From positions 1 to 64,000 of the forward strand of contig JAURVT010000033.1 in NCBI GenBank assembly GCA_030655315.1: 64,000 bases of DNA. Reading direction: 5' to 3'. Below the pieces are notes generated by a model that ran no database searches, was not told where the DNA came from, and saw nothing but the letters and a program-made list of their open reading frames with translations. The DNA comes from Nocardioidaceae bacterium (GTDB lineage: Bacteria > Actinomycetota > Actinomycetes > Propionibacteriales > Nocardioidaceae). Positions 9,199 to 13,298 of the stretch are shown here, in pieces. Each line of letters starts with the position of its first letter. The first letter of the stretch is position 1. The position numbers were made by a program, and so were the translations under genes.

Positions 9199-10107
9199 GT
9201 GGACGAGTCGCGCCGTGGTTTCCTGCTGGGCGCGGGCGCCTATCTCTGCTGGGGCCTGTTCCCGCTCTACTGGCCGCTCCTGCAGCCCGCCGGCGCGATC
9301 GAGGCGCTGTCGCACCGCGTCGTGTGGTCGCTGCTGTTCGTGGTCGTCCTCGTCACCGCGGTGCATCGCTGGAGCCTGCTCCGCGCGGTGCTGAGCCAGC
9401 CACGCAAGCTGCTGCTCGTCCTCGTCGCGTCGGTGGTGATCGCCTTCAACTGGGGCGGGTTCATCTGGGGCGTCAACAACGGCTACGTCATCGAGGTCTC
9501 CCTCGGGTACTTCATCAACCCGCTGGTGACGATCCTGATCGGCGTGGTGGTGCTCAAGGAGCGGCTGCGCCCGGTGCAGTGGGCTGCGCTCGGCCTCGCG
9601 GTCGTCGCCGTGGTCGGTCTGACCGTCGACTACGGGCGTCCGCCGTGGCTGGCCCTGCTCGTCGCCTTCTCCTTCGGCACCTACGGGCTGATGAAGAAGA
9701 AGCTCGACCTCGGCGCCACCGAGGGCCTCGCGCTCGAGACCATGCTGCTCACGCCCGTCGCGCTCGGGTACCTGGTCTGGCTGCAGCTCTCCGGCGACGG
9801 GACCTTCGGGTCCGAGGGCGTCCCGCACGCGCTGCTGCTGGTCGGCACGGGCCTGGTCACCGCGATCCCGCTGCTGATGTTCGGGGCCGCCGCCACGCGC
9901 GTCAGCCTGACGACGATCGGCCTGCTGCAGTACATCGCCCCGACGCTGCAGTTCGTCCTCGGCCTCGTCGTCTTCGGCGAGACCATGACCACCACCCGCT
10001 GGTTCGGCTTCGCCCTGGTGTGGACCGCCCTGGCGATCATCACCGCCGAGGCGCTCGTGCACCGTCGCCGCGTCGTCCGCCACCCCGCCGAGGCCGCCAC
10101 CGCCTGA
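9199..10107 (+). CDS. rarD: RarD-type EamA-family transporter
   Basis: A 302-residue inner-membrane protein with about ten hydrophobic helices. The segment FLLGAGAYLCWGLFPLYWPLLQPAGAIEALSHR is split here by its own features: the CWGLFPLYW stretch and the EALSHRVVWSL that follows are characteristic of RarD rather than general EamA proteins, and NWGGFIWGVNNGYVIEVSLG with FINPLVTILIGVVVLKERL closes the first repeat. RarD was first linked to chloramphenicol sensitivity in Pseudomonas, and its substrate is unknown. It is likely transcribed on its own and ends at a palindromic cluster. Confidence 0.85.
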   Translation: MDESRRGFLLGAGAYLCWGLFPLYWPLLQPAGAIEALSHRVVWSLLFVVVLVTAVHRWSLLRAVLSQPRKLLLVLVASVVIAFNWGGFIWGVNNGYVIEVSLGYFINPLVTILIGVVVLKERLRPVQWAALGLAVVAVVGLTVDYGRPPWLALLVAFSFGTYGLMKKKLDLGATEGLALETMLLTPVALGYLVWLQLSGDGTFGSEGVPHALLLVGTGLVTAIPLLMFGAAATRVSLTTIGLLQYIAPTLQFVLGLVVFGETMTTTRWFGFALVWTALAIITAEALVHRRRVVRHPAEAATA

Positions 10108-10270
10108 CCGCCGTCCGTCGCGCCCGCCCCACCGGTCCGTCGCTCCCGCCCCACCCGTCCGTCGCCGGCCCCGGTCACGGCCGGGTCGGACCGACGGACG
10201 GCAGGGGTCGGAGCGACGGACCGAGCGGGTCGGACCGACGGACGGCAGGGGTCGGAGCGACGGACGGGGG
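10108..10270. repeat. GTCCGTCG palindromic repeat cluster with a 39-bp direct repeat
   Basis: The whole gap between converging rarD and the SpoIIE-like gene is built of short units. On the left are three GTCCGTCG copies in one direction, and on the right are four CGACGGAC copies in the other, so the region can fold on itself. The right half contains an identical 39-bp direct repeat, 10183-10221 and 10227-10265, separated by 5 nt. It probably serves as a two-way terminator. Two copies with a 5-nt gap are not a CRISPR. Confidence 0.75.
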
Positions 10271-13006
10271 TCAGTGGGACTGGGGGTCGTGGACCCGGCG
10301 ACCCTCGGCGGTGACGCCGCGGACGACGAGCTCCACGCGGACGATGGTGCCCTCGCTGGTGCTCATCATGGAGAGGTCGTCGCTGATGGCCCGGACGAGG
10401 TACAGGCCGCGGCCGCGCTCGCTCTCGGTGCCGGGCAGGCGACGACCGAGCTCGTCGATGCTGTCGACGCCGGGGCCGTCGTCGGACACCTCGATGGTGA
10501 CGCGCCCCGTCTGCACCTGGACGCTCATGGTGACGACGCCGCGCGCGACCGACGCGGCGTTGGCCAGCAGCTCGGCGGCGACGAGCACCGCGTCGTCGGA
10601 CTCCACCTGGTGCGCCATCAGCCAGGTGCCGAGCTCGCGGCGCATCGTGCGGACGCCCTCGGGCTCGGGCGGCTCGAGCCGCCAGCGGCGGTCGGACTCG
10701 ACGGCGGCCTGGCGGGTGCGGCGCAGCACCAGGGCGAGGGTGTCGTCGCGACGGTCGGCACCGGCCAAAGAGCGGCGGACCAGCTCGTCGGCGTAGTGCT
10801 GCGAGGGCAGGTGGGCCACCTCGGCGGCGACCTTCACCAGCGAGTCCATGCCCTCGATGATGTCCTTGCGGGCCTCGATCAGGCCGTCGGTGTAGAGCAC
10901 CACCGAGTCGTGGACGTCGAGGGTGGTCGTGGCGACGTTGTCGCTGCCCACGCCGGGCCAGCCGATCGCCCCACCGGTGGCGGCGAGCTGGGTGACCTCG
11001 CCGCGGGAGCCGACCACGAGCGCGGGCGGGTGCCCGCCCGAGACGACCTCGAGGCGGCCGTTGCGCGGGTCGTAGCGCGCGACGACGACGGTGGCGACGA
11101 GCTCGGACTCCTGCGCGCCCAGCAGCTCGTCGGTGCGGCGGACGACGTCGACGAGGTCGGTGCCGTCGAGGGCGACGAACCGCAGCATGTGCATGACGGT
11201 GAGCGCGTCCTTGGTGGCGGCCACGCCGTGCCCGAGCACGTCGACGACGGCCACGTGCAGCTCGCCCGACGGCAGCTCGTGCCAGTCGAACAGGTCGCCG
11301 CCGGTGGGCGAGGCGGGGTCGGACGCGACGTAGGCGACCGCGATGTCGGCCCCCTCGACGGCCGGCGGCTCGGGGGCGACGGCCTGCTGGAGGTGGTCGA
11401 CGACCAGACGCTGAGCCGCCTGGGCCTCGACGAGCGCGCGGAACTGCTCGCGCAGCTCCTCGTACTCCTCGGCGGGGGTGACGTCGCGGGCGACGACGAC
11501 GAGCGACTGCCGACCCTCGGGGTCGGTGCCCGACGTGGCCGAGCAGGACAGCCGACGCTGGTCGCCGTCGGCGGTGGTCACGAGGATCTCGCGCGGCAGC
11601 GAAGGCATCGTCACCCAGTTGGCGAAGTCGACGGGACGCCCGGCCGCGGTGCGCGCACTGAGCACGCGCATCAGGTCGCGACGACCCGTGACCTCGCTCT
11701 CGGCGTAGCCGGTGATCCGCTCGCAGGCGGCGTTCCACGTGAGCAGCACGCCGCTGTCGGCGAGGCTGAAGATGCCGTCGGACGTGGTGCTGACGATCTG
11801 GTTGAGCTGGCGCTCCTGCTCGGTGACGCTGGCGAACAGCCGGCCTCGCGCCAGGGTGTTGCCCGTCTCACGGGCGAGCGCCTGCAGGACGACGAGCTCG
11901 GCGGACCCGGTCCCCTCGAACCCGACCTGGTCGAAGACGATCAACGCACCGACCGGCTTCTCGTCCTTGACCAGGGCCGCGCTGCTCGACTCGCGCCAGC
12001 CCGCCTCCTCGAGCGCGCGTGCGAGGTTCCCGGCCTCCCCGGCCCTCAGGCGGGTGGGCTCGAGCTCGCCGGCGAGAAGGCGCTCGATCGAGGACGCCGA
12101 CCGGTCGGGCGCGACCGCGCCGTCGGTGCCGGTGCTGAGGTAGGTGCCGAACGTGCCGTCGTCCTGGGTCAGGACGAGCGCCGCCACCCTGCAGTCGAAG
12201 CTCTGCCGGACCTCGTCCAGGAACTCGTGCACGACCTCCAGCGGATCGATCTTCGACGTCAGGCGTGCCGCGGCCTGCCTCAGGCCCTCCAGTCGACGCC
12301 CGTCGGCCTGGGCCGCGGCGTACTGGCGCACGACGTAGTAGAGCAGGACGAGCGGGAACGGGAAGAGCACCGTCGCCGCGGGGTGACCGACCGCCGCGAG
12401 GACGAAGAGCAGACCGAACAGCAGGTTGACCGAGACGCTCAGGAGCGTGGTGCCGAGGAGTGGCCGCAGTCCCGCGAACGCCCGACGCGCCGGGAGGTCC
12501 TCGGCGACGGACCGGACGGCCGTGGTGGCGGCGACGTTCACGAGGTTGACCGCGACGATGGTGACGACGAAGACGCCGAGGGAGCGCAGCGACAGGACCT
12601 CGCTCGACATCAGGCTGTCGGCGACGAGGCAGCCCACGGCCGCCGCGAGCATCCACTGGCCCGCGTTGAACAGGCCCTTGATCGGCTGGGTGCGGCGCGC
12701 GACGGCTGAGGCGAGCTGGACGACGCCGAGCACGCCGACGACCACCAGCGGCTCGAACGCGAAGATCAGTGGTGCCAGGAGCGCGTCGACGAGGGTGAGC
12801 GACTCCACGGAGCTGCGCCGCCGGAATCGGATACGCAGGAGCTCGGCAGCGGCGAGACCGACGACGAGCGCGGGCAGCGTGTAGAGCGGCAGCGCGAAGG
12901 CCGGCTCGGCGTCGATGAGGAGCGCGACGACGAGCGCGATCGCGGCGAGGACGTAGACGCCGGCGACGAAGACCCGCAGACGACGTTGCACGCGCGATCC
13001 GGTCAC
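10271..13006 (-). CDS. Membrane GAF-PAS-SpoIIE phosphatase with C-terminal HATPase
   Basis: A 911-residue sensor of the partner-switching type, which would dephosphorylate anti-sigma-factor antagonists and act as an RsbW-like kinase. Order: about seven hydrophobic segments (12-230), GAF (about 245-395), PAS (about 400-515, NQIVSTTSDGIFSL), PP2C/SpoIIE (about 545-740) and HATPase (about 785-900). The phosphatase metal-site residues are kept in PTGGDLFDW, VVDVLGHGVA, LYTDGLIEAR and RRDDTLAL. The HATPase has AAELLANAA, SDDGPGVD and GRGLYLVRAI. Both catalytic ends look active. No sigma factor or antagonist gene is adjacent. It starts at a GTG (13006) after AGGGG and lies 51 nt downstream of the secreted-peptide gene on the same strand. 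Confidence 0.9.
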   Translation of the reverse strand: MTGSRVQRRLRVFVAGVYVLAAIALVVALLIDAEPAFALPLYTLPALVVGLAAAELLRIRFRRRSSVESLTLVDALLAPLIFAFEPLVVVGVLGVVQLASAVARRTQPIKGLFNAGQWMLAAAVGCLVADSLMSSEVLSLRSLGVFVVTIVAVNLVNVAATTAVRSVAEDLPARRAFAGLRPLLGTTLLSVSVNLLFGLLFVLAAVGHPAATVLFPFPLVLLYYVVRQYAAAQADGRRLEGLRQAAARLTSKIDPLEVVHEFLDEVRQSFDCRVAALVLTQDDGTFGTYLSTGTDGAVAPDRSASSIERLLAGELEPTRLRAGEAGNLARALEEAGWRESSSAALVKDEKPVGALIVFDQVGFEGTGSAELVVLQALARETGNTLARGRLFASVTEQERQLNQIVSTTSDGIFSLADSGVLLTWNAACERITGYAESEVTGRRDLMRVLSARTAAGRPVDFANWVTMPSLPREILVTTADGDQRRLSCSATSGTDPEGRQSLVVVARDVTPAEEYEELREQFRALVEAQAAQRLVVDHLQQAVAPEPPAVEGADIAVAYVASDPASPTGGDLFDWHELPSGELHVAVVDVLGHGVAATKDALTVMHMLRFVALDGTDLVDVVRRTDELLGAQESELVATVVVARYDPRNGRLEVVSGGHPPALVVGSRGEVTQLAATGGAIGWPGVGSDNVATTTLDVHDSVVLYTDGLIEARKDIIEGMDSLVKVAAEVAHLPSQHYADELVRRSLAGADRRDDTLALVLRRTRQAAVESDRRWRLEPPEPEGVRTMRRELGTWLMAHQVESDDAVLVAAELLANAASVARGVVTMSVQVQTGRVTIEVSDDGPGVDSIDELGRRLPGTESERGRGLYLVRAISDDLSMMSTSEGTIVRVELVVRGVTAEGRRVHDPQSH

Positions 13007-13057
13007 GGATGCCCCTGAGGGTCGGTCACGGTCACTCCGACCGGTCCGACCCGAGGA

Positions 13058-13237
13058 TCAGTCCCAGTTCCAGCCGTTGGCGCGGTAGAGCTTGGGGCTC
13101 GGCGCGGCCGAGGTGCTGGAGGCGCTCGACGTGACGACGGTGCCGGAGGTGTCGGCCGAGGCGGACGTCGGGACGGCCAGCAGGGTCGAGGCGGCGACGG
13201 CCGCGGCGGCCACTCCGTAGGCGAGGCGCTTCATCAT
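13058..13237 (-). CDS. Small secreted peptide precursor, 59 aa, unknown function
   Basis: No family recognised. The start ATG-ATG-AAG at 13237 has a GGAG 8 nt upstream. Residues 1-28 form a standard signal peptide: MMKR, an Ala/Val-rich core, then PTSASA before Asp. Cleavage there leaves about 31 residues, Ser/Thr-rich and ending in a distinctive KLYRANGWNWD. There is no cysteine, so no disulfides or lipobox. A longer frame upstream (to 13285) lies over the promoter and is not credible. The gene precedes the membrane SpoIIE sensor by 51 nt with no clear terminator between, so they probably share a transcript and the peptide could be its signal or regulator. Confidence 0.7.
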   Translation of the reverse strand: MMKRLAYGVAAAAVAASTLLAVPTSASADTSGTVVTSSASSTSAAPSPKLYRANGWNWD

Positions 13238-13292
13238 CGTGTACTCCATCAATCTGGGTAGCCCGAACCCCCGGTCGGGGCACAACGGGATC

Positions 13293-13298
13293 AGACTA
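13293..13298 (-). promoter_or_regulatory. -10 box upstream of the secreted-peptide gene
   Basis: TAGTCT on the minus strand fits TANNNT. Transcription would start near 13286, giving a leader of about 50 nt with the GGAG ribosome site. This would drive both the peptide gene and the SpoIIE-like gene. Confidence 0.45.

Follow-up and report, generated by a model that had tools for sequence, protein, structure and literature searches.

Gram-positive bacteria are known to pair peptide pheromones with membrane receptors, as in the Agr and ComX-ComP systems; to our knowledge, few peptide ligand-receptor systems have been described in actinobacteria. The locus reported here lies in a 64,000-nucleotide stretch of DNA from a Nocardioidaceae bacterium (contig JAURVT010000033.1; hereafter the window). 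It resembles Agr and ComX-ComP in that a small, predicted exported precursor is encoded beside a polytopic membrane sensor, and in that the peptide changes fast while the sensor is conserved; the adjacency of precursor gene and sensor gene that marks these systems is found in the window and in eight relatives. It differs from them in the S-component-like fold predicted for the sensor, in the presence of SpoIIE and GGDEF-EAL domains among the signalling outputs, and in the tandem tryptophan-containing units (W units) of the candidate ligand, which often form the tail of a subtilase. The receptor of the known pheromone systems is a histidine kinase, whereas the output of the window's sensor is a SpoIIE-type phosphatase with an RsbW-like ATPase; other members of the sensor family do have HisKA. 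No Agr- or ComX-type maturation gene was recognized by eye beside the window's peptide gene. We found no description of such a peptide-sensor pair in the open-access literature, a search that is incomplete for subscription papers and preprints, and neither the W tail nor the peptide has a model in Pfam or NCBIfam. Judged from the sequences, the paired gene set is apparently undescribed and new in kind; it would work like a peptide-receptor pair, although the window lacks the receptor feature of the histidine-kinase pheromone families.

The peptide gene (13058..13237, minus strand; 59 codons plus stop, with the ATG at 13235-13237 and the stop at 13058-13060) encodes a product of 59 amino acids, MMKRLAYGVAAAAVAASTLLAVPTSASADTSGTVVTSSASSTSAAPSPKLYRANGWNWD. 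It is present at the same place in nine relatives, the window included, with a profile E-value of 1e-17, and a ribosome-binding-site-like GGAG (13244..13247) stands six bases ahead of its start codon. Residues 1-28 (13154..13237) read as a Sec signal peptide with the start MMKR, a hydrophobic core and a putative cleavage site between ASA and D; the K-R pair and the hydrophobic core are conserved among the relatives. Cleavage there would leave a mature peptide of 31 residues (13061..13153) that ends in the W unit GWNWD (13061..13075), a version of the family motif G-x(1,2)-W-[ED] carried by all nine peptides (22 units in total). The sensor gene follows on the same strand after a gap of 51 nt (13007..13057) in which a terminator scan found no terminator-like site, and promoter and terminator scans of the locus as a whole found nothing either. 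The peptide matched no family in Pfam or NCBIfam, and its score of 15.1 bits against the WGxxGxxG family (NF041742) falls short of the cut-off of 35.

The sensor gene (10271..13006, minus strand, GTG start) encodes a membrane sensor phosphatase of 911 amino acids. An N-terminal membrane domain with a predicted ECF S-component-like fold (residues 1-235; 12302..13006) is followed by a GAF domain (residues 254-384; 11855..12247; Pfam 4e-4, at 21.3 bits just below the cut-off of 22.4), a PAS domain (residues 400-508; 11483..11809; Pfam 2e-7), a SpoIIE PP2C phosphatase domain (residues 580-763; 10718..11269; Pfam 2.2e-33) and an RsbW-like HATPase domain (residues 779-891; 10334..10672; Pfam HATPase_c_2 4e-17). 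The open reading frame coordinates and the Pfam matches bear out the original prediction of a 59-residue signal-peptide ORF placed 51 nt before a GAF-PAS-SpoIIE-HATPase membrane protein on the same strand, with GAF as the one domain just under its cut-off; the seven helices then proposed for the sensor correspond to seven to eight membrane-length helices in the AlphaFold2 model. The catalytic domain is a clear member of the SpoIIE/RsbU-type PP2C phosphatases (PF07228, 2e-33; 116.3 bits against a gathering score of 25) with a fused RsbW-like ATPase, but the membrane domain and the linked, predicted-secreted candidate ligand are not part of that family. Against the stage II sporulation protein E equivalog (TIGR02865) the sensor scores 26.7 bits, far under the cut-off of 490.8. 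Between the convergent ends of the sensor gene and a RarD-like gene, GC-rich tandem repeats of 22/44 nt occupy positions 10100-10267 of the window.

Full-length SpoIIE sensors, which we took as orthologues, numbered 15 in 342 genomes of the same family. When the DNA upstream of each was translated, the peptide was found immediately upstream in nine of them, the window counted, and all nine peptides combine a K-R signal peptide start with a G-x(1,2)-W-[ED] end directly followed by the stop codon. In seven of the nine the W unit is present in 2-5 copies (GNDWE twice and three times, GTSWE three times, GV/TDWE twice, GVGWD twice, GNSWE three and five times), and the window's own peptide has a single motif, which is the most divergent of the set. 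A rough estimate that assumes independence puts the chance of eight relatives all sharing this ending at about 3e-31. GWNWD had been proposed as the C-terminal pattern to look for in related genomes; this literal ending occurs only in the window's genome, and it was given up as a search pattern in favour of the relaxed W-unit pattern, which is conserved and usually tandem. A peptide gene that was not conserved, or that occurred apart from the sensor, would have spoken against the pair. A profile built from the nine peptides recovered their own nine genomes at E 5.5e-15 or better and, as next best, signal-peptide-like noise at 2e-6, so that nothing convincing was found outside the nine sensor-bearing genomes among the 342, and no peptide without a sensor came to light; the gene stands beside the sensor in nine of the 15 orthologues, and the other six (L015, L129-L133) all belong to one genus, g21. 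The gene upstream of the peptide, read by eye, encodes a polyprenyl synthetase in the window and in genome G025, an OsmC-like product in G014 and a zinc-ribbon-like product in G026. Since this next gene differs between lineages, peptide and sensor stay together while their neighbourhood changes.

In the six peptide-less orthologues the phosphatase domain is still about 65% identical to that of the window's protein. All nine peptide-bearing SpoIIE sensors keep a KxxF core in their membrane domain and none of these six does; the absence of the peptide and the loss of KxxF in the six g21 orthologues count as one evolutionary event. The motif KxxFN was considered as a mark of ligand-bearing sensors and rejected: it holds in the SpoIIE clade but fails at class level, where it is not specific to W-repeat loci. 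In one of the g21 members (L133) a tandem DNA repeat fills the place of the peptide. A CATACT hexamer, noticed by eye, precedes the peptide gene at three loci (L010, L012, L126) and stands directly before the sensor gene in the peptide-less g21 genomes; it is possibly a shared promoter element.

A search with the whole sensor also matched proteins of 900 amino acids that share only its N-terminal membrane part and carry PAS-GGDEF-EAL in place of SpoIIE; a profile comparison with hhalign showed the membrane domains to be homologous (E 3e-13). Directly upstream of GGDEF-EAL sensors we again found W-repeat ORFs, with the units TSSWE (three to five copies), TSNWD (three), STDWG (two), RGNQWG (GNQWG; five) and VSHWD, and before other family members the upstream gene encodes a subtilase with a C-terminal W-repeat array, for instance of STAWN or TYSWD. 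At the edge of a contig of genome G014 (L138, C86), TPGHAWDTASTEWAR repeats, whose unit is unlike the others, precede a GGDEF-EAL sensor. In a set of 58 complete sensors at class level, the output is GGDEF and EAL in 34, HisKA in 21 and SpoIIE in three. The Pfam membrane domain MASE9 (PF20972) was reached by two of these 58 (best E 4.8e-5); the remaining 56 gave no match at 0.001, and the window's protein none at E 1. SpoIIE matches from Streptomyces and other named genomes covered the catalytic part only, and a full reading of four of them (L041-L044) revealed no apparent membrane domain of this type. The window's own genome encodes the membrane domain at two further loci: in one (L240, G000:C7:21291-27091) a subtilase with a W-rich tail stands directly before a same-domain sensor with an EAL-like output motif, and the other (L347, G000:C3:27890-28603) holds the domain for a third time, in a more divergent form and with no W-repeat ORF upstream.

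Counted at a domain-profile E-value of 1e-10 or better, the membrane domain occurs in 83 genomes out of a class-wide sample of 395, spread over 57 of 138 genera, and in 117 out of 296 sampled from the phylum at large; not all of these hits have a W-repeat neighbour. Surroundings were fetched for 80 class-level loci, 73 of which have at least 400 nt upstream. A scan for any W-repeat ORF in six frames proved too noisy, and we tied the test to position and spacing by asking for an ORF that ends beside the sensor and contains at least three tandem xxW units. This strict test was passed by 57 of the 73 sensors, and by 16 of 28 among the best phylum-level hits. It was passed by none of 68 SpoIIE genes without the domain (loci whose sequence match began 4 kb in), by none of 63 positions 1.2 kb further upstream and by one of 63 at the sensor's own end; an antisense control gave nine of 63, which mirror the same repetitive DNA. 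Where an array contains three or more identical units of five residues, the distance from it to the start of the sensor gene has a median of -6 nt. The linkage was recovered in the reciprocal direction: in eight genomes, 19 of 21 W-tailed subtilases precede a sensor (two further ones lie at contig ends), as does none of the seven untailed ones. The 16 failing sensors include one with a degenerate W-rich tail upstream (L254) and two with a W-repeat ORF about 900 nt upstream (L281 and L305). At L290 and L293 the upstream gene looks like one for a response regulator and not for a W-repeat protein. At L366 (G412:C17) a subtilase whose tail repeats GNAWSG stands as an orphan, with no sensor nearby, and is followed by an acetyltransferase-like ORF.

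That the linkage tracks the membrane domain of the sensor, whichever of the three outputs is attached, and does so phylum-wide, makes it improbable that the peptide is simply a small exported protein or an antimicrobial, possibly a RiPP, co-transcribed with a stress phosphatase and out of contact with it. Shortness, predicted export and an aromatic C-terminus are what such a product would show, but no maturation gene was recognized by eye next to the window's peptide. The pairing of peptide and membrane sensor, originally proposed as a new signalling pair, is upheld by comparative evidence from far beyond the locus; that the peptide signals through the sensor we infer.

Among the upstream ORFs, 48 are of subtilase size, and the five that were compared with Pfam hit Peptidase_S8 with E-values of 1e-38 to 1e-47. 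The mycosin-type subtilases of type VII secretion (TIGR03921) are the closest NCBIfam model; the linked subtilases score 122-167 bits (maximum 167.4) and thus below its cut-off of 278.75, and they differ in carrying W-repeat tails. Of the 11 short ORFs, three run into contig ends and are truncated, seven begin with a clear signal sequence (GASWN three times, GSGWH three times, SNGWQ four times, GATWN, SIWN three times, GTSWH three times and SHTWE four times), and one (L258) has a W array but no clear signal sequence. Arrays reach up to 23 units, and aromatic repeat arrays can bind polymers, while subtilases are often surface proteins. The W repeats might accordingly attach to the cell wall or to a polymer of the cell surface while the sensor monitors the wall, the two sharing a process and making no contact, a reading that we consider highly improbable: a single unit, or repeats of five residues within a peptide 30-50 residues long, would make a poor wall-binding module, and paralogues within one genome mostly have different W units, which suggests specificity.

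The membrane domain of the window's sensor was modelled by AlphaFold2 with a pLDDT of 94. A Foldseek search placed ECF S-components on top (RibU, probability 1.00, TM 0.70 by target), and VIA-align gave S-components Z-scores of 10-13.5 over about 160 residues (FolT, 13.5 over 162) and the next unrelated proteins about 8; this match was made on a predicted model at about 10% identity, and, by the tool's own warning, helical bundles may score as high. The model resembles the six-helix fold of the transporter S-components FolT, RibU and ThiT; the sensor domain differs from these in its low identity (about 10%), in extra N- and C-terminal helices and in its fused signalling domains. In S-components a small ligand is bound from the outer side in an intramembrane pocket; small molecules are known as such ligands, and peptides are not. 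By analogy, such binding would fit a receptor role of the sensor domain. The W tail of the L240 subtilase is predicted to be disordered (AlphaFold pLDDT about 35); a solenoid, which we also considered for this tail, is unsupported at this pLDDT, and the predicted disorder would fit a linear array of ligands better than a folded module.

We favour, with some reserve, the reading that the W repeats are ligands of a sensor with an S-component-like fold and that the window holds a reduced, protease-free form. What the comparisons and models show is the conservation of the genes, their linkage in both directions, one membrane domain serving three outputs, the predicted fold and the predicted disorder of the W tail. 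The small gene would yield a precursor exported by Sec and processed so that its C-terminal tryptophan unit could act as a ligand dedicated to the sensor of the next gene downstream. One W unit would dock from outside into the S-component-like membrane domain, and the GAF and PAS domains would relay the signal to the PP2C phosphatase and the RsbW-like ATPase that are fused to them; we infer that this output would, in a direction that the model leaves free, switch a STAS/anti-sigma partner system and hence, by partner switching, a putative target sigma factor. Across Actinomycetota the W units would mostly be presented as a disordered array ending a secreted subtilase, before sensors with GGDEF-EAL, histidine kinase or SpoIIE outputs, and several lineages, the window's included, would have kept nothing but signal peptide and W units. 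Counting against the ligand reading are the third membrane-domain copy (L347), the 16 of 73 sensors without a strict W repeat, the orphan L366, the single and divergent motif of the window's own peptide, the poor specificity of KxxFN at class level and the small-molecule ligands of S-components; many of the genomes compared are, moreover, draft metagenome assemblies.

The same reading can tentatively be extended, at slightly less than an even chance, to a principle for the whole phylum: secreted arrays of W units, as subtilase tails or standing alone, would be private ligands of S-component-like sensors in which c-di-GMP enzymes, histidine kinases and SpoIIE phosphatases are interchangeable, and the tendency of each paralogue to have its own unit would provide several channels per genome. 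If true, it would supply possible inputs to many c-di-GMP enzymes, kinases and SpoIIE phosphatases that now stand as orphans, and would point to a new role for the S-component fold; the candidate ligands are short enough to synthesize, so that the idea is directly testable.

A tree of 90 membrane domains bears on the role of the protease. The SpoIIE sensors form one group (89/88), in which the peptide group is sister to sensors with subtilase tails, three such members from other families standing beside it. The GGDEF-EAL peptide group of the window's family likewise has subtilase-tailed members as its sister (100/99). Another peptide-only group, the third, is placed elsewhere (100/99), and the three are set apart from each other among subtilase-tailed loci. 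Provided that the subtilase form came first, protease-free loci would have arisen at least three times on this tree. The closest rival to the ligand reading takes the W repeats as a tether or plug that holds the subtilase, or an emptied derivative of it, on the sensor, which would then sense proteolytic release or damage and not a diffusing peptide. In most loci the W units do belong to a subtilase whose catalytic motifs are recognizable, and they lie at or near the C-terminus in a tail predicted to be disordered; at least three lineages, however, keep the units without any protease domain, so that the protease is dispensable, and the short forms resemble free exported peptides. We therefore regard a tether or plug as unlikely, and return to the W units as ligands: the W unit is the part that is always kept, and the subtilase-tailed SpoIIE locus L237 carries GNSWYG, whose core, GNSW, recurs in the free peptides that two of the window's relatives encode.
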